Below, one piece after another: positions 4,378-53,970 of a stretch of 54,735 nt of DNA; position 1 is the stretch's first letter, and each line of letters begins with the position of its first letter. A model generated the notes under the pieces. The model saw only the letters and a program-made list of their open reading frames with translations, did not search any database and had not been told where the DNA came from. The translations under genes were made by a program, and so were the position numbers. Source of the DNA: Ottowia thiooxydans DSM 14619 (GTDB lineage: Bacteria > Pseudomonadota > Gammaproteobacteria > Burkholderiales > Burkholderiaceae_C). Location of the stretch: assembly GCF_000422885.1 (NCBI RefSeq), contig NZ_AUGX01000038.1, positions 1-54,735 of the forward strand, given 5' to 3'.

Positions 4378-4405
4378 GTGTTCACAAACGTTTATGGGGA
4401 AAATC

Positions 4406-5356
4406 ATGTCTAGCTCCTCCAACTCCGCGAATTCAAATGGCCGGAGAACCTCGCTTTTTTTGAATCCTGTGGATGGGCTGCTGCTCCTTGTGGCAGTGAT
4501 CTGGGGCGGTAGTTACAGCGCAGCCAAACTCGCGACCGATCAGATGCCGGTACTGCAGTTCCTGGTGATGCGCTTTGGATTGACATTTGTACTGTTGCTA
4601 CCTGCTCTGAGAGGTCTGGCTGTGCCTTCGTGGCCGGTGGCGCTGGCTGGTGCATCGATCCTTGGCGTCAATCTGCTCGCCATTTTCGTCTGCGAAACGT
4701 TTGGCGTATCACTGACCACAGCGTCCAACGCAGCGTTATTGGTCAGCCTGTGTGTTGCCTTCACACCCGTTTGCGAGTGGTGGCTGCTTAAGGAGAGGCC
4801 CGGCGCCAAGGTGATGGTCGCGGCCGGCCTTTCGCTGATGGGGGCAGGGCTGCTGGCGTTCCAGCACGGTGAATCTGCCGGGCTGAAGTGGGGCGATGGC
4901 TTGATCGTGCTCGCAGCGTTTCTGCGTGGTGTCATGGTGTGTCTGACGCGGCGTGCCAGCCAAAGGCATGGCCTGACGGCGCTCACCATGACAGCGGTGC
5001 AGATGGGCGTGATGACACTTGGGTCCGCACTCTTGATGTTCGCCGTGCATGGCACCACCTGGCCTCGGTTACCGCGGACTGCGTCGTTTTGGTCAGCCAT
5101 GGCTTTCCTGGTCCTGCTCTGTACCTTGTTCGCGTTTTTCGTTCAGAACCACGCCGCGGCCCGCACCAGCCCTACGCAGGTGGCCTTGTTAATGGGGAGC
5201 GAGCCGGTATGGGGCGCGTTGATCGCGGTCTTCTGGCTGGGCGAGCGAATGACCTCGTTAGGGTGGGCCGGTGGCTTGCTGATCATTGCATCCGCTTGGT
5301 GGGTAACCCGGCAGGAACGTAGTGAAAATTCACCATATGCCAAAAATAATACTTAG
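4406..5356 (+). CDS. EamA/DMT-family transporter
   Basis: This is a drug/metabolite transporter of about 316 residues with around ten hydrophobic helices in two EamA halves. The first half starts LLLLVAVIWGGSYSAAKLA, and the second contains QVALLMGSEPVWGALIAVFWLGE, the usual EamA pattern near the last helices. Such proteins in Burkholderiales commonly export amino acids or metabolites. The ATG at 4406 is preferred over 4394 because GGGGA sits about 6 bases before it. The LysR protein upstream probably regulates it. It ends 121 bases before the lux-like operon, and I see no reason to join them functionally. Confidence 0.85.
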   Translation: MSSSSNSANSNGRRTSLFLNPVDGLLLLVAVIWGGSYSAAKLATDQMPVLQFLVMRFGLTFVLLLPALRGLAVPSWPVALAGASILGVNLLAIFVCETFGVSLTTASNAALLVSLCVAFTPVCEWWLLKERPGAKVMVAAGLSLMGAGLLAFQHGESAGLKWGDGLIVLAAFLRGVMVCLTRRASQRHGLTALTMTAVQMGVMTLGSALLMFAVHGTTWPRLPRTASFWSAMAFLVLLCTLFAFFVQNHAAARTSPTQVALLMGSEPVWGALIAVFWLGERMTSLGWAGGLLIIASAWWVTRQERSENSPYAKNNT

Positions 5357-5466: not shown

Positions 5467-5480
5467 AGGAGGTCAGCTTG
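5467..5480 (+). promoter_or_regulatory. Strong ribosome binding site before a TTG start
   Basis: AGGAGGT at 5467-5473 lies four bases before TTG at 5478. No ATG is as well placed, so this site decides the start of the LuxE-like gene. The upstream gap 5357-5466 is AT-rich and probably holds the promoter, but I could not pick clear -35 and -10 boxes. Confidence 0.65.
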
Positions 5481-6650
5481 AGAATTGACTGCAGTGCAGC
5501 CGTAAACGGCGGCAAAGAGATACCGAAAAGCGTAGAGCGCTTTTGCGCGCAAACCGCACCTTATTTTGCCGATGCGCAGTCTGAGACAGACTTCGTTGAA
5601 GCCATGCGCGATGTAACGCTCTGGCATCGTGATCGTTCGCCCTGGTATCGCGGACTGCTGGAGGCATGTGGTGTGCAGGTGGAGCGGATGGCCACGTTGG
5701 CCGACGTGATCGCACTGCCCCCAGTTCACGCCAACTTCTTCAAGCAGCATGAAGTGCTCTCTGTGCCTGAATCGGATGTGGTGTTGAACCTCACATCCTC
5801 CGGTACGACGGGCCAGAAGTCGCAGATGTTTTTCGATGCGTTCACTATAGGCAATGCGAGACGCATGGTGGATGACGTGATGCAAGCGCGCGGCGTGACC
5901 AGCGAGGCGCCAGCCAATTACCTCGTCAACGCCTATGAACCCATAGATGGCCTGCGCGTAGGAACCTCCAACACCAATCAGTACCTGATGCGTTACGCAC
6001 CGCCGGCCAAAGTGTTCTGGTCGCTGCGGACGGTCGGTCAGGGGCAGCATGAATTCGATGCCTTTGGCGCTCTTGCTACATTGCGCGACTACGCGGAAGA
6101 CCGAGAGCGGCCCGCACGCATCATCGGGTTTCCGGCCTTTCTGCATTTCGCGCTGCAACGCATGCAGCGCACGGGAATGCCGCCACTGCAATTGCCTGCT
6201 GGAAGTTGTGTGATCTTTGGTGGGGGATGGAAAGGCCATGCGGACCAAGCTATTTCAAAGGAACAACTCCATCGAGACATCACGCATTGGCTGGGTATTT
6301 CGTCAGAGCGTATCGTCGAGACCTTTGGCGCCGTAGAGCACAGCATTCCTTACGTTGGCTGCACACAGCATCACTTGCACGCACCTATATGGTCACGTGT
6401 ACTGGTGCGCGATCCGCGAACACTCGCCCCGGTGCCAGACGGACAGCCCGGGTTCCTGTCTTTTCTCTCGCCCTACATTACCTCCGTACCAGCGCACAGT
6501 GTCGTCATGGGCGATCTGGCGATACGCCATCCAGGCAGCGCCTGTAGCTGCGGTAACCCGATGCCTTGGTTCGAGGTGCTAGGGCGCGCCGGAACTTCAT
6601 CCAACAAGAGTTGCGCAGCTGCTGCCGCGGAACTGCTGCCGTCGTCATGA
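5478..6650 (+). CDS. LuxE-like acyl-protein synthetase
   Basis: This 390-residue member of the LuxE/PaaK adenylating family activates a fatty acid with ATP and carries the acyl group on a cysteine for delivery to the reductase. The ATP-binding loop is SSGTTGQKS at residues 107-115. Further LuxE features are NAYEP, IGFPAFLHFAL, VIFGGGWKG and ETFGAVEHS. The C-terminal SNKSCAAAAAELL puts Cys379 where Vibrio LuxE carries its acyl-acceptor cysteine. It starts at TTG with a strong ribosome binding site and overlaps the next gene by ATGA. Bioluminescence use is not expected because luxAB and luxD are absent. The fatty-aldehyde role is inferred from pairing with a LuxC-like reductase. Confidence 0.85.
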   Translation: MRIDCSAAVNGGKEIPKSVERFCAQTAPYFADAQSETDFVEAMRDVTLWHRDRSPWYRGLLEACGVQVERMATLADVIALPPVHANFFKQHEVLSVPESDVVLNLTSSGTTGQKSQMFFDAFTIGNARRMVDDVMQARGVTSEAPANYLVNAYEPIDGLRVGTSNTNQYLMRYAPPAKVFWSLRTVGQGQHEFDAFGALATLRDYAEDRERPARIIGFPAFLHFALQRMQRTGMPPLQLPAGSCVIFGGGWKGHADQAISKEQLHRDITHWLGISSERIVETFGAVEHSIPYVGCTQHHLHAPIWSRVLVRDPRTLAPVPDGQPGFLSFLSPYITSVPAHSVVMGDLAIRHPGSACSCGNPMPWFEVLGRAGTSSNKSCAAAAAELLPSS

Positions 6651-9208
6651 TGATCGCCGACTCCATGAATACCTCCGTTTTGGAAACCGATACGTCGGAC
6701 GCTGCGCACTATTGGTTTGGCCGCTGGCTCCACGCCCCAGATCTCCCGAACGCCCTGAACGCGTTGCCAGCGCATATTGACGCCACTTTGCCTCGCACCT
6801 TTCCCCTGCATGCCCTCCTGACGGCGTGTGACAGTGTTGGACTGCAAATGCAGGAACGCCGAGGCTGTTATGAAGCCCTTTTGCGTGAGGCCAGTGATGG
6901 ACGAGGCGCAGCTGACGCAGACGCCATGCTTCAAGGCATGGCTTCGATGCTGCGCAAGGAGGCCATGGAGGAGAAACTCCGCACCGAACTGGGCAACGAA
7001 CACCCCGGTACGCTGCGGCGTCGGTATCCGGAGCGCCAATACGAAGCTTGGGCGCCCTGTGGGTGCGTAGTCCACGTCGCGCCGTCCAATGTGTTCACGA
7101 CCGCTGCTATGGGTCTGGTGGAAGGGCTCATGGCTGGCAACGTCAACGTGGTCAAGACCAGCACGCGCGACGGCCGGGTTGCCGGGCTGTTTGCCTCGGC
7201 GCTTGTCGCCAACGACACCTCTGGTCGGTTGGCTGACTATCTGGCGGTCTTGCGTCTATCGTCAAGTGAGCAACAAACTTTGCGGCAACTGTTCACTTAC
7301 GCCGATGTAGTCTCTGTATGGGGTGGAGAAAAGGCTGTAGCTGCCGTGCGTGCCATGGTGCCATCTCACACGCGCCTCGTGGTGTGGGGGCACAAGCTCT
7401 CCTTTGGCTACCTTGCCGCCGACTGCGTAGACGATGACACGGTGCTGGAAGCCTTCGCCCGTGACGTGTGCCGCCTGGATCAGCAAGCATGCTCCAGTCC
7501 GCAAAACTTGCTGGTGGAAACAGACGAAGCTGGCCTTCGCGATGTGGCTCGGCGACTGGCCACCATCCTGGCCCGAGTCTCACCCACGGTACCCGGCCGG
7601 CACCCTGACATGGCCGAGCAAGCTGAAATCACAACCGTGCTAAGTGTCGCGCGTTGCGAGCAACCGCTGGGTCTCACAGAGGTCATTGAGGACCCCCATG
7701 GCCAATGGCGCATCGTCCTGGACACTCGCTCTGGCTTGCGGCCCTCTCCGTTGTTTCGCACGATCTGGCTGAAACCGATACGGCGCGAGCAACTGGCGGG
7801 TCTGCTGCGACCGTTCAGGGCCTGGCTGCAGACTTGCGGACTGGCGACCGGCCTGTCTGGGGCAGGAACGCTTTCTCGCGTGCTTTTCTCCGCGGGCGTT
7901 AGCCGCATCACTCGTCCGGGCGAGATGATTGACAGTTATACGTGCGCCCCGCACGACGGGGTCTACGCCTTGCAGCAACTCACTCGGCGTGTCTCGTTTG
8001 ACGGGCCCGAAGCATTACATTATTTTGGCCATCTGGACGCCCTGGAGCCACCTCAACTAGTGCCCCCGCCTTCAGCGCCGGTGCTAGACAAGAGCGGCTT
8101 CCAGGCTCTGGGCCAAACTGCTCAGGAGCGCGACCCTCACGCAGGCCTCATTGTGCGAAGCGGTGGCTCCAGCGGCAAGGTCGCATACTCGAGCTTCCGC
8201 TGGGCGGACTATCACTCGCAGATGGAAGCCACTGCAGATGGCATGGTGGCCGCGGGCCTGGATCCAAGGCAAGACCGGGTGATGAATCTTTTCGCGGCTG
8301 GCCATCTGTATGGAGGTTTTGTCAGCTTCTGGACCATTCTTGAGCATCTGCGCGTTCTACAACTGCCCATGGGCCTGCTGCCTGATTACGACCTGATCGC
8401 CACTCAGATCATCGAGCACGAGGTCAACACACTGGTTGGTGTGCCTCCGCATCTGTTGGCTCTTTTTACGGAGCAAGGCGAGCGCTTACGCGCCTGGGGT
8501 GGTGTGAAGAAGATCTTCTACGGGGGCGAGCCTTTGTCTGTTGCCCAAGAACGCTTCCTCACCGATGAATGCGGCGTGTCCCTGGTTCGTTCCGCCGCCT
8601 ATGGCTCCAATGATGCCGGACCAATGGGCTACCAGTGCCTCCACGAATCCGGCACGGTGCACCACCTGCACACCCGCTTGCAAACTCTGGAAATCGTGGA
8701 GATGGATCGCGATGTGCCCGTACAGGGCAATGCCGTAGGTCGACTGTTGTTCACGCCATTGATGCGCAGCGCGCCCCGCATTGAGCGCTACGAGATCGGT
8801 GATCTCGGTCGTTGGGTAGATGGGCCCTGCGCTTGTGGCCGTCAAGAGCCACGCTTCGAACTTCTAGGTCGCCTGGGCGACGTGTTCAAAGCCGGGCCTC
8901 TGATGAACTACCGCCATTTTGCCGACGTGCTGAGCAAGAGTTTTGCCTACGCGGGTGCGGTTCAACTGCATCTGCGCAGTGCCGGCGCCCGTACCGTGCT
9001 GGATATCTGGGTTGGAACGCAATGGGACACCAATCTCAGCCAAGCCCTCAGTGAGGAGCTGTTTCAGCATTACGAGCCCCTTCAGTGCGTGACTGAAAAC
9101 GCGCTACCGTTCGAATTGAACATCGTCCCCGTTCCCAACGACCAGTTCGTACGCAATGAGGCCAGTGGCAAGCTCATTCATGTATGCGATCACAGGCATC
9201 AGGCCTGA
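6647..9208 (+). CDS. LuxC-like acyl-CoA reductase fused to a PaaK-like adenylating domain
   Basis: This 853-residue two-domain protein starts at the ATG overlapping the LuxE stop. Residues 1 to about 470 are LuxC-like: YEAWAPCGCVVHVAPSN and MAGNVNVVKTS form the nucleotide-binding part, and QQACSSPQ puts Cys282 where LuxC has its catalytic, acyl-binding cysteine (near 286 in Vibrio). Residues about 490-853 are a phenylacetate-CoA-ligase-like adenylating domain with SGGSSGK (505-511), FYGGEPLS, SAAYGSNDAG, YEIGDLGRW and a C-terminal SGKLIH placing the conserved lysine at 842. LuxC and the adenylating enzyme are normally separate, so the fusion implies local acyl activation and NADPH reduction to an aldehyde, or activation of a second acid. 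The substrate is unknown. Confidence 0.85.
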   Translation: MMIADSMNTSVLETDTSDAAHYWFGRWLHAPDLPNALNALPAHIDATLPRTFPLHALLTACDSVGLQMQERRGCYEALLREASDGRGAADADAMLQGMASMLRKEAMEEKLRTELGNEHPGTLRRRYPERQYEAWAPCGCVVHVAPSNVFTTAAMGLVEGLMAGNVNVVKTSTRDGRVAGLFASALVANDTSGRLADYLAVLRLSSSEQQTLRQLFTYADVVSVWGGEKAVAAVRAMVPSHTRLVVWGHKLSFGYLAADCVDDDTVLEAFARDVCRLDQQACSSPQNLLVETDEAGLRDVARRLATILARVSPTVPGRHPDMAEQAEITTVLSVARCEQPLGLTEVIEDPHGQWRIVLDTRSGLRPSPLFRTIWLKPIRREQLAGLLRPFRAWLQTCGLATGLSGAGTLSRVLFSAGVSRITRPGEMIDSYTCAPHDGVYALQQLTRRVSFDGPEALHYFGHLDALEPPQLVPPPSAPVLDKSGFQALGQTAQERDPHAGLIVRSGGSSGKVAYSSFRWADYHSQMEATADGMVAAGLDPRQDRVMNLFAAGHLYGGFVSFWTILEHLRVLQLPMGLLPDYDLIATQIIEHEVNTLVGVPPHLLALFTEQGERLRAWGGVKKIFYGGEPLSVAQERFLTDECGVSLVRSAAYGSNDAGPMGYQCLHESGTVHHLHTRLQTLEIVEMDRDVPVQGNAVGRLLFTPLMRSAPRIERYEIGDLGRWVDGPCACGRQEPRFELLGRLGDVFKAGPLMNYRHFADVLSKSFAYAGAVQLHLRSAGARTVLDIWVGTQWDTNLSQALSEELFQHYEPLQCVTENALPFELNIVPVPNDQFVRNEASGKLIHVCDHRHQA

Positions 9209-10522
9209 GTGAAAAACAACCTAACCATGACGACCCCGGCTACCCGTGAACCCGCTTCTGAGCAGCTTTTATCCGTGTTGCGATTTGTTCGCACACATTC
9301 CCCGTTTTACCGCGACTTCTATGCTCAGGTACCGCAAGATGCGGCAAGACTTGATGACTACCCAGTGCTTGACAGCCAGGCATTCTGGGCTGCCAACACC
9401 GTGCAAGGGAACACGGTACTGACGGCGCCCATCACGGAGGGGATTACCTTCAAGAGCGGAGGAACGACCGGCCATCCCAAGTACTCAGTCTTCACGTATG
9501 AAGAATGGCGTGCGTTCACCAAAGCCTTTGGACAAGGTATGCGCCGTGCTGGCCTGCAACCCGGCCAACGGATTGGCAACCTGTTTTACGCCGGCAAGCT
9601 ATACGCCTCGTTCCTGTTCATCACACGGTCCATAGAAGCGGCGGGGATCAGTATCTGCTACCCGCTCGCGGGCGATGATCTGGACGAAATCATCGCGGCG
9701 TGGCGTCAGTTCGATATCGACGTTCTGGCCGGTGTGCCCACCACACTGATGAAACTCCTTGAGCGCCTGACGCCAGAAGACAAGGCACGCCTGAAACTGA
9801 CAACATTCCTGTTTGGGGGCGAACCCATGTTCGCCGACCAGATCGCCGCCGTGCAGGCGGTCTTTCCAGGCTGTCAAGTACGCTCCATTGGAGTGGCCGG
9901 AGTGGACTACGGCGAGCTGGGCTGGGCCAGCCCCGGGGCTGAGCCGGGGGTGCATCACTGCTTCGATGACAGTACCGTGATGGAGTTGATCGATGACGCC
10001 ACTGGCGAGCCCATCGACGTTCCTGGCCGCACGGGCCGGATCGTGCTGACCAACCTGGCGCGCCGGCTCATGCCCATCATTCGCTATCCGGTAGGTGACC
10101 GGGGAGAATGGCTGGATCCCGTGGGCACACCATCTCGACGCTTTCGATTGCTCGGCCGCACGGAAGAGGGCGCTCGCGTCGGCCCCATGAGCCTGTATGT
10201 GGATGACATGCGCCAAGCCCTCACCGACTTGGAGCACAGCGAAATGCCATTGGGTTTCAGGGACTTTCAAATGGTGATTGAGCATCACGAGCGGCTCGAC
10301 GCTTGTTGCCTGCGTATCGCCGTCGAGAGACCACAAGAGCGGACGATTGAAGACACTCGACGAGTGATCGATCGGGTGTATGCAGCCAGACCCATGTACA
10401 GAGATCTGCAAGACCAGCAGTTGGTACACGGGTTGACTGTGCAGTGGGTTACAGCATCTGATCTCCACACCAACGCACGTACTGGTAAGTTGCTTCGCGT
10501 GGTGGATCACCGCCATGGCTGA
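9209..10522 (+). CDS. PaaK-like acyl-adenylate/CoA ligase
   Basis: This is a stand-alone phenylacetate-CoA-ligase-like protein of 437 residues, or 431 if it starts at the ATG at 9227. The GTG at 9209 follows the previous stop directly. ATP-loop SGGTTG is at residues 83-88 and the acyl-site segment FLFGGEPMF in mid-protein. The adenylate-contacting stretch is IRYPVGDRGEW. C-terminal TGKLLRVVDHRH has its lysine at 427 and is strikingly like SGKLIHVCDHRH at the end of the preceding fusion protein, so the two are probably paralogues from a duplication. It would activate a carboxylic acid as an adenylate or CoA ester. The last 8 bases overlap the next gene. Confidence 0.83.
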   Translation: MKNNLTMTTPATREPASEQLLSVLRFVRTHSPFYRDFYAQVPQDAARLDDYPVLDSQAFWAANTVQGNTVLTAPITEGITFKSGGTTGHPKYSVFTYEEWRAFTKAFGQGMRRAGLQPGQRIGNLFYAGKLYASFLFITRSIEAAGISICYPLAGDDLDEIIAAWRQFDIDVLAGVPTTLMKLLERLTPEDKARLKLTTFLFGGEPMFADQIAAVQAVFPGCQVRSIGVAGVDYGELGWASPGAEPGVHHCFDDSTVMELIDDATGEPIDVPGRTGRIVLTNLARRLMPIIRYPVGDRGEWLDPVGTPSRRFRLLGRTEEGARVGPMSLYVDDMRQALTDLEHSEMPLGFRDFQMVIEHHERLDACCLRIAVERPQERTIEDTRRVIDRVYAARPMYRDLQDQQLVHGLTVQWVTASDLHTNARTGKLLRVVDHRHG

Positions 10523-12074
10523 CGAACCCTGCGCCTGGGCCCGCCTGACAGTTCCTTCCGAGCCTGGCGCGCTAGGCGCCATTCAAGCACTGCTGCTGTC
10601 GCAAGCTCAGGCTCACCGCTTTGCGAAAGTCGTGCTTATCCACATGCGGGCTGCCTGCGACGAAGCCTTGACCACTATTCTGCGTTTGAGCCAGGACAAT
10701 AGTGAGGACGCTGACCGGACGCTGGAAGTCAACGTTGAATGGGATGGACACGCGCTGCACCTGAGACTTTCCGACCACGGTCTTCCCTATGACATGAGCT
10801 TGCTGCCGAGCTACAGCCCGCAGCAGCCCGAGTCCGCTGACGACAACCTCGCGGGCTTGGCAGCGTTTCTCATGCAGAAGATGGCTGATCATTGCCAGGT
10901 GCATAACCACGGATCTCTCGGCCACCATGTGGAATTGCAATGGTTTCTGCCGGAAGCAGAGCTGAATGCCGCTACAGACGAGACCGGCGCTAACGACAGG
11001 ACCGGCAGCCTGTTCGTCGCGCCGGCCGCCATCCTGGAAAATAATGTCGGTGCGCCACTCGACGCCATTGAAGTCCGGCCACTGGAAACGAACGATGCCA
11101 TTCACCTCGCCCGTCTCGTATACCGGAGCTACGGGTATTCCTACGTCAACCCGGATATGTACATTGCTGAGCGCATCCTGGCACGCGTGCAAGATGGGCG
11201 GCTGACCTCCTGGGTCGCCGTTACTCCGGGCTCAGAAGGCGATGAAAACCTCCCCGTTGGCCACATTGCCTTCATGAAGAGTCATCGCGACGACGATACA
11301 TTGGAGGTCGGTTCTGCGGTGGTCTCCCCCGATCAGCGTGGCGGCGGCCTGCTGGGACGATTGCTGTCAATCGCCACCGACGCCCTGGCGCAGCGCCCCG
11401 AACGCGCAGCGTTTGTGCACGCAGTCACCGCCCACCCTTTTACTCAAAAGACCTTTGGTCGACTGGGGTACCTGCCTACGGCATTGATGCTGGCCTACAC
11501 ACCGGCCAGCCTGCGTTTTCGCAGCATCGGTGAGAAGGCGGGGGCGCAACGAGGCAGTGTGTACTACGCCTGCAAGTTGCTGCGCCCCGTCGAGCCGGTG
11601 AAGGCGTATGTGCCCTTAAGCGTACAAGCCCTGGTGCTGCCTCGCGCCGCGGACATCGGATTGCCGTTGCAGCTTCAACCCATCGAAGGAAGTACACCGC
11701 AAGGAGATACAGACCTCCTCGTGCAGGCTGAAGATACATTGAACTCGGCTTTCCTCACGTTGCGCCGCACGGGGGAGGATTTCTCTCCGCATCTGCGCAG
11801 GGTGCTCAGGCGTCTGTGCCGGGCGCAGGTGGCCGTGATCTACCTGAGCCTCGATTTGAGCGATCCGGCTACGCCCTCGGCTTGCGAGCAGGCGATGGCA
11901 CAAGGCTTCATCGCCGCCGGCTTGACACCTTTCATGCCATGGCCGGCCACCTTGTGCCTTCAGTACCTGAATAACCAGTCGCTGGATCCCGATGCCGTCT
12001 GCGCCGTAGGCGAGGCGGCCGAGCATCTGCGCGATACGCTTTTTGCGGCCTATCAGGCTCAGGAGATGCTCTGA
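10515..12074 (+). CDS. HATPase (RsbW-like)-GNAT two-domain protein
   Basis: This 519-residue protein has an unusual domain order. Residues 1 to about 150 resemble the RsbW-type ATPase/kinase fold: ACDEALTTI at the N-box, LRLSDHGLPYD at the G1 box and GLAAFLMQKMADH near the G2 region. The N-box asparagine seems replaced, so ATP binding may be altered. Residues about 190-340 are a GNAT acyltransferase with VSPDQRGGGLLGRLL as the acyl-CoA pyrophosphate loop. The last 170 residues are unassigned. As the last gene of the lux-like operon, overlapping the previous stop by 8 bases, it may acylate the product or act as an ATP-sensitive regulator. Function is inference. Confidence 0.7.
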   Translation: MADEPCAWARLTVPSEPGALGAIQALLLSQAQAHRFAKVVLIHMRAACDEALTTILRLSQDNSEDADRTLEVNVEWDGHALHLRLSDHGLPYDMSLLPSYSPQQPESADDNLAGLAAFLMQKMADHCQVHNHGSLGHHVELQWFLPEAELNAATDETGANDRTGSLFVAPAAILENNVGAPLDAIEVRPLETNDAIHLARLVYRSYGYSYVNPDMYIAERILARVQDGRLTSWVAVTPGSEGDENLPVGHIAFMKSHRDDDTLEVGSAVVSPDQRGGGLLGRLLSIATDALAQRPERAAFVHAVTAHPFTQKTFGRLGYLPTALMLAYTPASLRFRSIGEKAGAQRGSVYYACKLLRPVEPVKAYVPLSVQALVLPRAADIGLPLQLQPIEGSTPQGDTDLLVQAEDTLNSAFLTLRRTGEDFSPHLRRVLRRLCRAQVAVIYLSLDLSDPATPSACEQAMAQGFIAAGLTPFMPWPATLCLQYLNNQSLDPDAVCAVGEAAEHLRDTLFAAYQAQEML

Positions 12075-12380: not shown

Positions 12381-12953
12381 ATGGCCGAAGCGTTCGAGTT
12401 CTTTCAAGCATGGCTCAAAAACCCCCTGCGTGTGGCAGCTGTCGCACCCTCAGGAAAAGCACTCGCCCAACTCATTACCTCTGAAATTTCGCATGACACC
12501 GGGCCTGTGATTGAACTCGGCCCAGGAACCGGCGCGTTTACCCGCGCGTTGATCGAACGGGGCGTCAAGCAAGAGGATCTGGCGTTGATCGAGTTCGGCG
12601 CTGAGTTTGCCGAAGCGCTTCATTTGCATTACCCGAGAGCGTGCACGCTTCGCATGGATGCCGCTCGGCTGCGCACCGCGAACATCTTTGACGGAAGGCC
12701 GGCCGGAGCGGTCGTCAGTGGATTGCCTCTTTTGGCGATGCCTCCGCTCAAGGCGGCGGCCATCTTGACTGGCGCATTCCGCAAAATGAGACCAGACGGC
12801 GCCTTCTACCAATTCACCTATGGCCCTCAGTGCCCTGTGCCTCGAAAGCTGCTGAATCGCCTTGGCATCCAGGCGCGATGGCTTGGTGGAACACTCGCCA
12901 ATCTTCCGCCGGCATCGGTATACCGTCTTACCCAAATTCCCCCAGGCAACTAG
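12381..12953 (+). CDS. PmtA-like phospholipid N-methyltransferase family protein
   Basis: This 190-residue class I SAM-dependent methyltransferase is similar in layout to bacterial PmtA, which methylates phosphatidylethanolamine to phosphatidylcholine precursors. The first segment VAAVAPSGKALAQLI and the SAM loop ELGPGTGAFTRAL (G-x-G-x-G) are clear. An acidic residue follows in LIEFGAEFAEAL, and VVSGLPLLAMP is the PmtA-like active-site strand. The protein is soluble, as in that family. The lipid substrate is inferred from motif resemblance; other small-molecule methyltransferases share this fold. Confidence 0.75.
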   Translation: MAEAFEFFQAWLKNPLRVAAVAPSGKALAQLITSEISHDTGPVIELGPGTGAFTRALIERGVKQEDLALIEFGAEFAEALHLHYPRACTLRMDAARLRTANIFDGRPAGAVVSGLPLLAMPPLKAAAILTGAFRKMRPDGAFYQFTYGPQCPVPRKLLNRLGIQARWLGGTLANLPPASVYRLTQIPPGN

Positions 12954-44450: not shown

Positions 44451-45836
44451 ATGAATAACCTGCAGGAGCTCACGGACGACGCTTATTGGATGCGGCAAGC
44501 CTTGGCTGCGGCCCAAGAAGCTGGCGCACGCGGCGAGGTCCCCGTAGGTGCTGTGGTCGTGCGGCAGGGCCAGTTGATTGCCACAGGCAGCAATGCCCCT
44601 ATTGCAGGCCATGATCCCACGGCCCACGCCGAAATCGCAGCACTGCGTGCCGCGGCGTTAAAACTTGGGAACTACCGGCTTGACGACTGCGAGCTCTACG
44701 TCACGCTGGAGCCTTGCGCAATGTGCGCTGGAGCCATGCTGCACGCCCGTCTGAAACGCGTCGTTTTCGGCGCACCAGACCCTCGAACCGGTGCCGCGGG
44801 CTCGGTGCTCAATTTGTTTGCAGAGCCGCAACTCAACCATCAGACCCAGCTCGCAGGTGGTGTGCTCGCACCAGAGTGCGGCGCCATGTTGCGTGAGTTT
44901 TTCCGGCCAAAGCGCAGCAACCCCAGTCCTTTGCGTGAAGACGCTTTGCGTACCCCAGACACCGCATTCGCTGCTCTGCCGGGTTACTCATGGCACCCCC
45001 ATTACGTGAGCAACCTGCCCAGCTTGGCGGGTCTGAGAATGCATTACGTGGACGAAGGGGAGAAGAGCGCACCACGTACCTGGCTCTGCTTGCATGGGAA
45101 TCCAAGCTGGAGCTACCTCTATCGCCACATGATCGCCGTTTTTGCGGCCGCTGGGGACCGGGTAGTGGCACCAGACATGCCGGGTTTCGGCAAGAGCGAC
45201 AAACCCAAGCGCGAATCCGCTCACAATTTCGTGTGGCACCGGCAGGTGCTGTTAGAGCTGATAGAGAGACTGGATTTGAAGAACATCATCTTGGTGGTCC
45301 AAGATTGGGGTGGCTTGCTGGGCTTGACATTGCCTATGGCCGCGCCTGATCGCTACAAAGGCTTGCTCGTCATGAACACCATGCTGGGCACCGCGAACGC
45401 TCCACTTTCCCCCGGAGTCATGGAGTGGCGCCGGATGTGCGCAAACAAGCCGGCCTTTGATATTGGGCGCCTTCTGGCACGCAGTACCCCTCAGCTTTCG
45501 GCCCAAGAGCGCAAAGCCTATGAAGCTCCGTTCCCGGACTCTGGCTACCGGGCCGCCACACGTGCATTTCCCGCCATGGTGCCGGAATCCGTGGATGAGG
45601 AGGCTGCCGTCATATCGCGGGTTGCCCGCCAGTACTGGAGCCATCAATGGACCGGCCAAAGCCTGATGGTAGTGGGCGGCCAGGATCCAGTGATTGGCAT
45701 CGCGGAAATGCAGGCGTTGCGTGCCGATATCCAAGGGTGTCCTGCACCCTGGGTCATCGAGCATGCCGGCCATTTCGTGCCGGAACTGGGCAAACCCATT
45801 GCAGAGCGGGCGCTAGATTATTTCGAGAAAAACTGA
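44451..45836 (+). CDS. tadA: TadA tRNA adenosine deaminase fused to a haloalkane-dehalogenase-like hydrolase
   Basis: This 461-residue fusion has two independent domains. Residues 1 to about 165 are TadA, which converts A34 of tRNA-Arg to inosine: HAEIAALR and PCAMCAGAM carry the zinc ligands and catalytic Glu. Residues about 180-461 are an alpha/beta hydrolase of the haloalkane dehalogenase type: HGNPSWSYLYRH (halide-site Asn), nucleophile Asp285 in VVQDWGGLLG, and His441 in HAGHFVPE. Both active sites look intact. This fusion occurs in Comamonadaceae, but why the domains are joined is unclear. Confidence 0.92.
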   Translation: MNNLQELTDDAYWMRQALAAAQEAGARGEVPVGAVVVRQGQLIATGSNAPIAGHDPTAHAEIAALRAAALKLGNYRLDDCELYVTLEPCAMCAGAMLHARLKRVVFGAPDPRTGAAGSVLNLFAEPQLNHQTQLAGGVLAPECGAMLREFFRPKRSNPSPLREDALRTPDTAFAALPGYSWHPHYVSNLPSLAGLRMHYVDEGEKSAPRTWLCLHGNPSWSYLYRHMIAVFAAAGDRVVAPDMPGFGKSDKPKRESAHNFVWHRQVLLELIERLDLKNIILVVQDWGGLLGLTLPMAAPDRYKGLLVMNTMLGTANAPLSPGVMEWRRMCANKPAFDIGRLLARSTPQLSAQERKAYEAPFPDSGYRAATRAFPAMVPESVDEEAAVISRVARQYWSHQWTGQSLMVVGGQDPVIGIAEMQALRADIQGCPAPWVIEHAGHFVPELGKPIAERALDYFEKN

Positions 45837-49779: not shown

Positions 49780-50688
49780 ATGAAAAACATAATTCAGAAT
49801 CAACATCTAAGTCCATTAATGATCGCCGCAGGCAACGGTGAAGCGGAGGAAGTAAAAAAACTCCTCGCGGGTGGAGATTCTCCCTTTTTACTTGATAGCC
49901 TTACTGGGACGTCACCTTTGCATTTTGCGGCTCAAGGAGGGAACATCGAAGTTGCCCGTCTCCTGATCGGTGCAGGTGCCCTAATCAATTTGCAAGCTGC
50001 AAGTAACAGCTTTACGCCATTAATGGTCGCGGTTTGGTATAGAAATCCGGAAATGGTCCAATTTTTGTTAGAGCAAAAAAGGATAAATCCTTTAATGAAG
50101 AATTTATTCGGAATGACAGCTCGAGAGTTCATCAATGAGAAAGATGAAGCTTCACAGAATAGGGCCGATAGAGAAATAATCGGAATATTCGATGAATTTT
50201 TCAAAAATAGAAATATATTTATAACACACCATTTTGAGGAAGACGAAGTCACACCAAAGCCTAGTGGAAATATTAACGTTCGGATTCCCAATGGCATCAA
50301 TGGCAACGATTACCATACTTCTGCATTGGTGGCCGGAAGAAATGGGGATATTGCGCTCTTAAAAAAATTGCTGGCGGATGGAGCAGATATCCTAGCAACC
50401 GACGAATATATGCTCGCCAACATCGCACACAAGGCAGCGTATAACGGTCACGCAGACATCTTGGAGTTGATATGTAGACTTCCGGATTTTGACGAAATTA
50501 AAGATAAACAAGGGCCTACTAACGGTTATACGCCACTACATGACGCGGTGTGGCACGGGCATTATGAGGCTGTCAAAATTCTCTTAAGTTCCGGTGTGAT
50601 AAGAGATTTAAAGGCATGGGACAACCTTACGCCGCTGGATCTTGCTCTCAAAAATGGATATGAAGAGATAGCTGAACTTTTTAAGTAA
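49780..50688 (+). CDS. Ankyrin-repeat protein
   Basis: This 302-residue protein is built of ankyrin repeats. Blocks at TSPLHFAAQGGNIEVARLLIGAGA, TPLMVAVWYRNPEMVQFLLEQ, HTSALVAGRNGDIALLKKLLADGAD and TPLHDAVWHGHYEAVKILLSSG are clear. It is more AT-rich than the surrounding genes, which suggests transfer. It has no signal peptide or enzymatic domain. It may bind a partner protein or act as an immunity-type orphan. Alone in its transcript. Confidence 0.8.
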   Translation: MKNIIQNQHLSPLMIAAGNGEAEEVKKLLAGGDSPFLLDSLTGTSPLHFAAQGGNIEVARLLIGAGALINLQAASNSFTPLMVAVWYRNPEMVQFLLEQKRINPLMKNLFGMTAREFINEKDEASQNRADREIIGIFDEFFKNRNIFITHHFEEDEVTPKPSGNINVRIPNGINGNDYHTSALVAGRNGDIALLKKLLADGADILATDEYMLANIAHKAAYNGHADILELICRLPDFDEIKDKQGPTNGYTPLHDAVWHGHYEAVKILLSSGVIRDLKAWDNLTPLDLALKNGYEEIAELFK

Positions 50689-51154
50689 AGAAAAACCTCT
50701 GTTCTATAGGCTCCAAAGGAGGGTGGACGCATAACTGGCTCTCACGTTCTCATAAGAGCCGACCTTACTCATTGCACCTTGCGTGAATTCACTCATTGCA
50801 GACCCTAGTTGGCCAAAATTCAGGGGGTTAAGTAGATTTCAGGGGGTTCCCTCGGTGCGTGTCACGCTGGCATCTCTAGGTATATGAGCTCGGAGAGTTG
50901 GGCGTTAGCTCTGACATGAGTGAAGCTGCGCTCCCGTACATCAACATGTGCGACTCAACGCATAGGCCGCAAAGTTGTAATCTCACATGTAGACATGTCA
51001 TGTGCACGACCTAAGGTTGAGCTCTTTGCAGAGGACAATGGTCATGAGGTATGGCGTCAACGAGAGGACGCGACGGTTGCTGAGAGCATCCCCACATTCT
51101 CGATACTTAACATAATACACATCGTATGAAGTAAGACCAACACGGCAGATACCC
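50689..51154. other. Non-coding gap with no assigned content
   Basis: About 465 bases with no convincing gene, promoter or terminator. A GGCGTTAGCTC near 50903 recalls the end of an integron attC site but the other half is not visible. Confidence 0.35.
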
Positions 51155-51330
51155 CTGCACGTGCGGGAAACCCGCGCCAGCCAAGGCCGCAAGCTCCGTT
51201 CGTTGTATCGCAGCCTGGGCTGGTCAAGGGCCGACTGCGCGAAGTTCCTTCATGTCACCAAGCGCGGCCTACAGAACTTGGACGCCGTTCGCCACGCTCA
51301 AGCTGTGATGCGACTGCATCTGCGCTTCAT
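51155..51330 (+). pseudogene. Broken VC1465-type Xer recombination activation factor
   Basis: The translated frame reads RETRASQGRKLRSLYRSLGWSRADCAKFLHVTKRGLQNLDAVRHAQ. This matches a helix-turn-helix family often named VC1465 or Xer activation factor, found with integrative mobile elements. The usual Trp-Glu after the recognition helix is changed to Leu-Asp, and the conserved GRHAIPY-type end is lost, running into unrelated residues. The remnant is about 55 residues and ends against the VOC gene. Likely a relic of a past integration event. Confidence 0.5.
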
Positions 51331-51719
51331 GCGGCAACATGGCACGCTACACACAGCTTGTTCCCATCGAGGTCACGAAAGTACGCGCCGAAATATTGCT
51401 CGTGGTATTCAGGCCGGAGTCCTGGAGCGCCTTCGGGTGCAGCACCAAGCAGCAACGCGAGTTCATACACTCGCTCGACTTTAGCTCGCGATGAAGCCAT
51501 GAAGGCCACCATGGTGCCGTTTCCGGGGCTCGGTGCTTCGGTATTGAACGGTTTGGCAATAACGAATAGCGGGCGTGGACCGGGAGTTGACTCCCATCCT
51601 GCCCATGGTTTTTCAGGGTCACAGAACCGCTCTTTGAAACCCAATACCTGAAAAATCTGGCGATAGAAATTCAACGATCGGTCGAAGTCAGAGATCCCAA
51701 CAAAAACATGCGAGAACAT
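51327..51719 (-). CDS. VOC-family protein (glyoxalase/bleomycin-resistance-like)
   Basis: This 130-residue vicinal-oxygen-chelate protein starts FSHVFVGISDFDRSLNFYRQIFQVLGF and ends EYHEQYFGAYFRDLDGNKLCVACH, the paired beta-alpha-beta-beta-beta pattern with metal-ligand His and Glu positions. The ATG at 51719 follows GAGG by 7-8 bases. VOC proteins range from glyoxalases to dioxygenases and resistance proteins; this copy's role cannot be told. It sits alone facing the mobile-element remnant. Confidence 0.83.
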   Translation of the reverse strand: MFSHVFVGISDFDRSLNFYRQIFQVLGFKERFCDPEKPWAGWESTPGPRPLFVIAKPFNTEAPSPGNGTMVAFMASSRAKVERVYELALLLGAAPEGAPGLRPEYHEQYFGAYFRDLDGNKLCVACHVAA

Positions 51720-51761
51720 TTTTCCATCCTCAGATTCACATCTACCGATTGACTTCGACAA

Positions 51762-52098
51762 ATGGCGCCAACCATTCGTCAGAAAGAATTATCAATCATC
51801 GATGTCATTTGGTTCTCTCCAGCTGAGCACCTCGTCTCGCATAGTTCTCGACATCAAGCACCTCCGGAGCTACACCTGCGCTTTTTTCCATCGTCGGGTA
51901 GCTTCTGACGGCCCTTGGGGCCGCGCCAAGTTCGTTTACTCCGTTCTTGAGCTTGTGGCTCGCTATCCCGGACCGCCCTTCTCTCTTCTATCAGGGATTT
52001 CGGCACTCTACTGCCATTCATGTCACCCAAACAGGTGATAGACAGGCATCCGGCGCCAGCTTAAGCTCGTAACCACTTTGAAAATTCATCCGCAGCAC
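51762..52098. other. Non-coding gap before the MORN gene
   Basis: About 335 bases with no supported gene. No clear promoter or terminator was found. Confidence 0.35.
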
Positions 52099-53970
52099 AT
52101 GACTAAAAACCTCTTCACTCATGCAGTCCATATGCTTTTACCGGCACTTGGCCTTGTTTTCTGCGTAAACGCCCAGGCCAACTGGCTCATGTATGACGAA
52201 GCCAGTTCAAAAGGAATTTATGTTTTTGAGAACGGCGTACGGTACGAAGGAGGCGTGCGTAACAAGCAATTCCACGGGCACGCCGTAGTCACCTCGCCTA
52301 ATGGTCAACGCTTTGAGGGAGCCTATGTTGACAACAAGCGAACCGGCTATGGGGTGCTCGTTTCGGCGAGTGGGCAACGCTTTGAAGGGCAGTTTTTAGA
52401 TGGAAATCGGACTGGGAAGGGACTTCATACGTGGCCGGATGGTCACCGCTACGAAGGCGATTTTCTTGATGGGAAAGCTCACGGCCAGGGAACGATGGCC
52501 TACCCCAATGGACAACGTTACGAAGGTCAATTCTTAGAAGGAAAAAGAGCGGGAAAAGGGGTTTTAACCTGGCCGGATGGTCACCGCTACGAGGGCGATT
52601 TTCTTGATGGGAAAATGCACGGCCAGGGAACGATGGCCTCCCCCAATGGACAACGTTACGAAGGTCAATTCTTAGAAGAAAAAAGAGCGGGAAAAGGGGT
52701 TTTAACCTGGGCGGATGGGCAACGCTACGAGGGCGAATTCTTGGATGACAACCAGAGTGGACGCGGGTTGCTTGTGTACGCCGACGGTCGGCGCTACGAA
52801 GGTCAATTTTTAAATGGAAAAATAGCGGGAAAAGGCACTTTCACTTGGCCATCTGGGGCCCGCCATGAAGGCGACTACCTCAACGAGAAGCGGAATGGGC
52901 ATGGGGTTTTTACATACTCAAATGGGCAACGGTATGAGGGGCAATTCCTGGATGGAGACGAGTCCGGAAAGGGAGTTCATACCTGGCCTTCAGGCCAACG
53001 ATACGAAGGTACCTTTTTGAAAGGGGCGCTCGAGGGTTGGGGCGAGATGCGTTACGCAGATGGAGAGAGGTATGCCGGAGAATGGCGAGGAGGCAAACGC
53101 GTAGACCGCATTGAACAGCGGGAGGCGCGCGAACGACAAAATTCAGGCAATACCTCCCAGCTCATCGCTGGCTTGATCGGTACAGCCGTCATTGGAAGCG
53201 CGCAGGGAATTGGAAGTGCTGCAAAGTTGCGTATGGCAGGCGGATTTATTGCTGACGTGGCGACTAACGGCCAAGCGGGTGGCATACAGAGCGCAACTCG
53301 AGACATTCAATCAATGCCCATCAATACGCAGCAAGGCTTTGCTGAACAGCAGCGGGCAGCCTTGGCCGCAGAAAGAGCACGCCAGGAGAATCAGCAGGTA
53401 CTTGCGCGTGCTGAACAAGATAGACAACAGCGGCAGGCTCGTCTTGAACAGGACAAGCAGCAGCTGGCTACTCGTACCGAACAAGCAATCCAGCAGCCGG
53501 CTACTCGCGCTGCACCACAAAACCAGCAGTCGCTGCCGGTTACTGGTGGTGGTACTGGACAGCAAAGCCTGCAGTTGATTGCTCGTTCGGATCCACAAAA
53601 CCCACGGGCAGTTGCTCCTGGTGAGCAATCTTCTCCACCAGCATTTCCGCCGGTGATGGAAACCAATCCGTATGTACGGGACTCTCATCGGAACTTCTCC
53701 TCTTGGGACGTGCCGATGTCCCCATGGAGCGGAGACTCCAGATTTGCAGAAACCCGTGCCGCAGCATGCGAAGCTGTCCTGAATGTGATCTCACGGAAGA
53801 TCCAAGAAGAGAATGCCAGGGGCTACAAGGTCGTCACGGAGAAAACAAATTGCATATGTAAAACCACTGGGAACCATGGCGAAATTCCGGTGGTTGCAAA
53901 AGGTTGGCTGTGCGGCGCCTACTTTCAATCACGTGATACGGGTAAGCGGAGAGGCGATGTGGCTCGTTGA
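52099..53970 (+). CDS. Secreted MORN-repeat protein
   Basis: This 623-residue protein begins with a signal peptide (hydrophobic HMLLPALGLVFCVNAQA, cleavage likely after NAQA). Residues about 45-330 are around twelve MORN repeats of 23 residues with the core GQRYEGQF and G-x-G-x-x-T-W-P-D-G. Then comes a Gly/Ala-rich hydrophobic stretch (LIAGLIGTAVIGSAQGIGSAAK), a Gln/Arg/Ala-rich coiled linker (residues about 420-500) and a C-terminal domain with four Cys (AAACEAV, TNCICKT, WLCGAYF). The start used is the ATG of MTKNLF. MORN repeats usually bind lipids or scaffold membrane proteins. The role here is unknown. Confidence 0.85.
   Translation: MTKNLFTHAVHMLLPALGLVFCVNAQANWLMYDEASSKGIYVFENGVRYEGGVRNKQFHGHAVVTSPNGQRFEGAYVDNKRTGYGVLVSASGQRFEGQFLDGNRTGKGLHTWPDGHRYEGDFLDGKAHGQGTMAYPNGQRYEGQFLEGKRAGKGVLTWPDGHRYEGDFLDGKMHGQGTMASPNGQRYEGQFLEEKRAGKGVLTWADGQRYEGEFLDDNQSGRGLLVYADGRRYEGQFLNGKIAGKGTFTWPSGARHEGDYLNEKRNGHGVFTYSNGQRYEGQFLDGDESGKGVHTWPSGQRYEGTFLKGALEGWGEMRYADGERYAGEWRGGKRVDRIEQREARERQNSGNTSQLIAGLIGTAVIGSAQGIGSAAKLRMAGGFIADVATNGQAGGIQSATRDIQSMPINTQQGFAEQQRAALAAERARQENQQVLARAEQDRQQRQARLEQDKQQLATRTEQAIQQPATRAAPQNQQSLPVTGGGTGQQSLQLIARSDPQNPRAVAPGEQSSPPAFPPVMETNPYVRDSHRNFSSWDVPMSPWSGDSRFAETRAAACEAVLNVISRKIQEENARGYKVVTEKTNCICKTTGNHGEIPVVAKGWLCGAYFQSRDTGKRRGDVAR
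52441..52716 (+). repeat. 138-bp near-identical tandem duplication in the MORN gene
   Basis: The block at 52441-52578 is repeated at 52579-52716 with few changes. 138 bases equal six times 23, that is two MORN units of 23 residues, so frame is kept. The high identity against the diverged other units shows a recent duplication. Confidence 0.85.

Follow-up and report, generated by a model that had tools for sequence, protein, structure and literature searches.

The window analysed here, a stretch of 54,735 nucleotides from the genome of Ottowia thiooxydans DSM 14619 (contig NZ_AUGX01000038.1), carries on the plus strand, between positions 5478 and 12074, four tightly packed genes with open reading frames throughout, designated A, B, C and D. 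Gene A (5478..6650) starts with a TTG codon, preceded five bases upstream by a probable ribosome-binding site (aggagg, 5467..5472), and encodes a LuxE-like acyl-protein synthetase of 390 amino acid residues (Pfam LuxE, 2e-33). It overlaps by four bases with gene B (6647..9208), which starts with the ATG at 6647, the listed TTG at 6566 being a longer reading of the same gene, and encodes a LuxC acyl reductase fused to a PaaK-like adenylating domain. Gene C (9209..10522), directly abutting B, encodes a PaaK-like AMP-forming ligase of 437 residues, and gene D (10515..12074), overlapping C by eight bases, encodes a protein composed of an RsbW/SpoIIAB-like HATPase domain, a GNAT domain and a C-terminal region. 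Both the open reading frames and the Pfam matches agree with the four-gene make-up given in the initial annotation (LuxE-like, LuxC with adenylating domain, second adenylating enzyme, RsbW-like/GNAT). Just 5' of the operon, on the same strand, lies an EamA transporter gene (4394..5356; Pfam EamA, 1e-32), a possible exporter whose membership in the operon is uncertain; no relative above 50 bits was found among 89 related loci scanned, and MFS genes occupy this position in other lineages. Directly 3' of the operon, positions 12381-12953 encode a phospholipid N-methyltransferase-like protein (PmtA/OlsG profiles, below cut-off). Further along the window, a single open reading frame (44451-45836) combines a cytidine/tRNA-adenosine deaminase-type domain with an alpha/beta hydrolase, and positions 49780-53970 encode two repeat proteins, one with ankyrin repeats and a long one with MORN repeats, within a stretch of lower G+C content (0.487 at 50001-52000).

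A profile built from ten relatives of A matched LuxE of 7xc6 (1e-30). Protein B matched Pfam LuxC (1e-85) and AMP-binding (7e-7; 28.9 bits, just under the cut-off of 29.9), and its profile recovered LuxC of 7xc6 together with PaaK-like ligases, while C matched AMP-binding (3e-8) and, as a profile, phenylacetate-CoA ligases, AjiA1 (3e-14) and EhpF (1e-5). Residue conservation was assessed, as was phylogeny (see below), in 87 loci, namely 96 loci minus four with an incomplete gene and five without a separate C. The two acyl-carrying cysteines to which the initial annotation had drawn attention, Cys379 of A and Cys282 of B, are located exactly as described and are kept in 87 of 87 loci, as is Lys427 of C; the C-terminal Lys842 of B is kept in 86 loci, with a gap in the other. 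Protein A is predicted to activate a finished peptide acid and to hand it over to LuxC, B to combine an aldehyde-forming reductase with one amide ligase, and C to act as the second amide ligase. No luciferase family was present among the Pfam matches of all 48 predicted open reading frames of the window and two others, as previously stated for the luciferase genes. Carrier-protein and condensation families were likewise missing from the window Pfam matches, and of the linked carrier protein or transporter proposed in the initial annotation as something to look for, the window offers the upstream EamA gene as a candidate transporter.

Protein D matched Pfam HATPase_c_2 (2e-11) and GNAT (0.001; 19.7 bits, just under the cut-off of 20.7), and the GNAT fold was supported by an AlphaFold2 model (mean pLDDT 82.6, pTM 0.67, with values below 50 in the linker 148-177). 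The HATPase domain covers approximately residues 13-143 and the GNAT domain residues 186-340, followed by a C-terminal region conserved in related GNATs. Foldseek comparison of the model returned RsbW, SpoIIAB and GNAT structures, the top ones for the HATPase domain being 6m36, 6m37 and 1l0o. Residues 184-509 align with nearly the whole profile of the GNATs encoded in enterobacterial relatives of the operon (99.9% probability, E=1e-36), and more weakly with that of a further GNAT group (E=3e-11); by these matches, D is that acyltransferase extended at its N-terminus by a further domain. The enterobacterial GNATs (294-317 residues) are devoid of the RsbW-like part. D is predicted to be an N-acyltransferase with a regulatory domain, the regulatory role being presumed for the RsbW-like part. 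The N-box asparagine of the kinase SpoIIAB serves Mg-ATP. It is replaced by threonine in D of the window, and among 21 related D proteins (24 D-group loci, from which two duplicates and the Salmonella GNAT, which has no such domain, were removed) it is kept in ten and lost in 11, the window being among the latter.

A LuxC match was detected in 33 of 299 genomes of the same family, and a close one (at least 67% identity) in five of them, that of O. thiooxydans included. The four other close genomes possess A-B-C-D in the same order with 49-81% identity, which argues that the four-gene set is not due to chance. Conservation of the gene order elsewhere, left in the initial annotation as a matter to be checked, is found in these four family genomes and, as A-B-C-GNAT, in Enterobacteriaceae. 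The three other genomes listed for the same genus contained no LuxC match. The remaining 28 of 299 family genomes have only a distant LuxC (25-35% identity), with a LuxE-like neighbour in four of six surroundings examined and a fused ligase in none of these six. In a scan of a wider genome collection, restricted to the best 80 of at least 536 relatives and favouring full-length matches to the fused B, the LuxC-ligase fusion was present in 80 of 80 loci, A in 79, a separate C within the fetched stretch in 75, and A, B and C together in 74. According to record titles, the taxa include Actinomycetota (mostly Streptomyces), Pseudomonadota, Bdellovibrionales, Bacteriovorax, a Bacteroidota bacterium, Sulfurimonas, Thermodesulfovibrionales and Syntrophorhabdaceae, with many metagenome-assembled genomes. 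A second organisation, found mainly in Actinomycetota and relatives of Bdellovibrio, combines A-B-C with an MFS gene and a GNAT of a different type; of 66 loci without RsbW-type D, 39 had such a GNAT and 30 an MFS gene, with Pfam applied to examples and some genes missed by the simple gene caller. Viral contigs, searched for close relatives only, yielded no relative of B, and phages a single record matching the LuxC part only (29%).

In the A+B+C tree of the 87 loci, the window grouped with Paenacidovorax caeni and same-genus loci (support 0.997) and with two Comamonas-genus loci (support 1.0), and the ten enterobacterial loci formed one group (support 1.0). The 19 loci with an RsbW-GNAT grouped together, with weak support (0.554), only if a locus whose contig ends before D (L050) was counted in. 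Amino acid permease genes adjoin three related operons (L051 7596-8807, L066 10165-11352 and L057 7219-8826; two of the tryptophan/tyrosine family and one AA_permease_2), which hints that amino acids may serve as substrates. On a plasmid of Streptomyces europaeiscabiei (NZ_CP109155.1, L045 2997-11455), LuxE and an unfused LuxC lie beside YcaO-like, MBL-fold and DUF692 genes, possibly a RiPP pathway with an acid-reduction step.

The founding paper on the leupABCD leupeptin operon is Li et al. 2020; a published copy is that of Klebsiella oxytoca CAV1374 (CP011636.1, 315353-321183). Coordinates in the accessible part of PMC8283571 give 5781 bp from the start of leupA to the end of the cluster, and a transporter is described there beside leupABCD. 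Operons of this kind are published for Klebsiella, Photorhabdus and Xenorhabdus (PMC11480411, in its accessible part), and the accessible part of PMC11212599 presents the pathway as separate AMP-dependent ligases plus a reductase, independent of NRPS. Among 392 genomes of Enterobacteriaceae, 14 contained a relative of the B protein of a Salmonella plasmid; ten of these 14 loci were fetched, of which nine have A-B-C-GNAT, the order also seen on the Salmonella plasmid, and the tenth is truncated. The intact enterobacterial operons, including that of the Salmonella plasmid (n=10), are 5757-5820 bp long, and in three of three loci checked the gene upstream of A is of the MFS type. By description and length, the published leupABCD, as presented in the accessible parts of these sources, appears to be the same gene set, so that the term "undescribed" used in the initial annotation, which was to be given up for a published pathway with exactly these genes, seems no longer appropriate. 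The published leup primer sites are absent from the 12 enterobacterial loci tested (at least six mismatches); the leupB reverse primer reads EQLKDH in one frame, and one of ten loci (L145) shows EQLKETL close to where B begins, displaced by about 30 bp from the expected offset, a resemblance that is suggestive only. In one genus (g636), which we take to be Photorhabdus as an Enterobacterales genus with luxC, all four operon-carrying genomes also possess a luxC above the equivalog cut-off (894-901 bits). Identity between the proteins of the window and those of the intact enterobacterial operons amounts to 44-47% for A, 34-43% for B (by domain) and 36-39% for C, and at this distance the substrates may differ. 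Two Salmonella enterica plasmids (CP054717.1 and CP053580.1), typed as conjugative and with IncF replicons, carry the operon, the GNAT gene of the latter being split into two pieces, while E. coli genomes gave no match to the Salmonella A-B DNA. Two further enterobacterial copies are degenerate, one with a stop codon within B (L141), the other with a B lacking the ligase domain beside a short piece of C (L151).

Streptomyces roseus ATCC 31245 (L125) carries the genes in the arrangement C-MFS-GNAT-A-B. Three enzymes classically assigned to S. roseus, a leucine acetyltransferase, a leupeptin acid synthetase and a leupeptin acid reductase, match the step count of this operon. The accessible part of PMC10548850 names strain ATCC 31245 "the leupeptin producer" and gives Streptomyces leupeptin as NRPS-made; this listing conflicts with the present reading of the S. 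roseus operon, a disagreement that can be tested. The operon of S. roseus is a candidate for the leupeptin genes in a Streptomyces producer.

Leupeptin and its relatives are short protease-inhibiting peptides ending in an aldehyde. Formation of Ac-Leu-Leu-argininal requires a single N-acylation, the making of two amide bonds, activation of the tripeptide acid and one reduction, a step count that corresponds to what the operon encodes: a single GNAT, a pair of ligase domains, a LuxE and a LuxC. The operon of the window is, with high probability, of the leup kind of NRPS-independent pathway, making a short peptide aldehyde with an N-acyl group, in the simplest case acyl-X-Y-argininal or a related compound. 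This reading is based on the gene set, on the conservation of catalytic residues and on the finding that a named producer of leupeptin possesses these genes as well; discrete AMP-dependent ligases and the reductase are joined in one operon lacking any carrier-protein or NRPS family, and gene set and homology are common to leupeptin-producing taxa (S. roseus and, presumably, Photorhabdus). For substrates, step order and product we infer the following course. D would acylate a free amino acid with acyl-CoA as donor; the two ligases, C and the one within B, acting in either order, would first adenylate the acyl-amino acid and afterwards the acyl-dipeptide, each being amidated by the next amino acid; A would adenylate the tripeptide acid and move it to its own Cys379; and LuxC of B would take over the acyl group on Cys282 and reduce it with NADPH to the aldehyde. 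The product formed here may differ from leupeptin. A peptide-aldehyde route independent of NRPS, published for gammaproteobacteria, would in this way be extended to many further lineages.

A variant compatible with this pathway, in which the working product would be a pyrazinone or a similar signal arising after cleavage of the aldehyde rather than the inhibitor as such, is unlikely; pyrazinones derived from leup have been published for Photorhabdus and Klebsiella (accessible part of PMC11480411), but such a product needs a protease step, and none was seen here. Still less credible is a reductase for another acid, for instance an aryl acid, the two ligases then linking building blocks of another kind. 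Precedents of the aryl-acid type are GriC/GriD (grixazone) and EhpF/EhpG (phenazine biosynthesis), and the matches of the C profile to AjiA1 (3e-14) and EhpF (1e-5), like the tryptophan/tyrosine permease genes beside two related operons, would fit this reading; however, no precursor-making gene is prominent among the annotated part of the recurrent neighbours, and the operon resembles leup in its gene set, gene order and length. A LuxC/LuxE-type fatty aldehyde system without luciferase, in which A would activate a fatty acid, B reduce it and acyl groups pass to or from D, agrees with the LuxE and LuxC domains and their two cysteines but is very improbable, given the scores of A (82 bits against a LuxE equivalog cut-off of 550) and B (79 bits against a LuxC cut-off of 750), the recurrence, alongside A and B, of a separate second ligase in 74 of 80 loci (best 80 of at least 536), and the 61-65 bits of the operon LuxC in the four genomes where true luxC reaches 894-901. 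Luminescence and fatty aldehyde formation were set aside on these equivalog scores, the operon having neither LuxC and LuxE at equivalog level nor linked luciferase genes, as would be expected of luxCDE. Of the acyl-aldehyde system proposed in the initial annotation, the activation and reduction of an acid to an aldehyde, the different product and the involvement of GNAT are retained in the peptide-aldehyde pathway, and the fatty acyl substrate is not.

Within the stretches fetched, similarity grouping places a SpoIIE-type gene near 12 of the 21 RsbW-type loci; a STAS gene occurs near 11, and one or both occur near 14, counts that are not independent because the loci are related; two of the seven loci without either are on contigs shorter than 10 kb. 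Three SpoIIE proteins analysed with Pfam all contain a Cache-type sensor and HAMP. SpoIIE or STAS is nearby in nine of the ten loci that keep the asparagine of D, versus five of the 11 that have lost it. SpoIIE-group genes are present in six actinobacterial loci too, so proximity alone is no proof. The window itself contains neither SpoIIE nor STAS genes (Pfam; STAS profile), and other contigs of the same genome gave one strong SpoIIE match and five STAS matches. In two loci, sigma-70/ECF-like genes adjoin D (L055 15393-16040 and L062 6690-7298), possible further partners of the RsbW-like domain. With SpoIIE and/or STAS near 14 of 21 loci, the combination with the RsbW-like domain suggests partner-switching control of the acyltransferase. 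As a tentative model, which we hold with rather less than even confidence, D could be the RsbW element of a circuit in which a Cache/HAMP SpoIIE senses an outside cue and dephosphorylates a STAS protein, which binds the RsbW-like domain and switches acylation, and hence the output of protease inhibitor, on or off without transcription; this would hold for a broad set including Burkholderiales, Lysobacterales, Azonexus and Sulfurimonas, the kinase having decayed to a binding domain in the lineage of the window. If the RsbW-like domain gates the acyltransferase, partner switching would acquire a new type of output, a small-molecule enzyme instead of a sigma factor. No description of the RsbW-domain variant of the acyltransferase was found in the literature searched, and nothing relevant on RsbW, SpoIIE or STAS with GNAT or leupeptin, which is weak evidence as subscription papers lay mostly outside the search.

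Compared with known systems, the operon shares with the LuxC-LuxE fatty acid reductase (7xc6) the cysteines of both proteins and, by sequence profile, the families, but differs in the fusion of LuxC to a ligase domain, in scores far under the equivalog cut-offs and in the lack of a luciferase family in the window. C and the adenylating domain of B belong to the family of PaaK-like ligases (phenylacetate-CoA ligase, AjiA1, EhpF), with the C-terminal lysine in both, whereas no CoA or aryl substrate is assigned to either. The N-terminal fold of D matches RsbW and SpoIIAB of the RsbU-RsbV-RsbW and SpoIIE-SpoIIAA-SpoIIAB systems, and SpoIIE and/or STAS genes accompany 14 of 21 related operons; in contrast to these systems, the domain is fused to an acyltransferase, and in the window its asparagine is replaced and SpoIIE/STAS are absent nearby. 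Closest is leupABCD, compared here through the accessible published description and length: it likewise has four genes, agrees in total length and combines a reductase with separate AMP-dependent ligases, and enterobacterial loci show A-B-C-GNAT; from the leupABCD kind the latter differs in the extra RsbW-like domain of D and in A-C proteins 34-47% identical to the enterobacterial ones.
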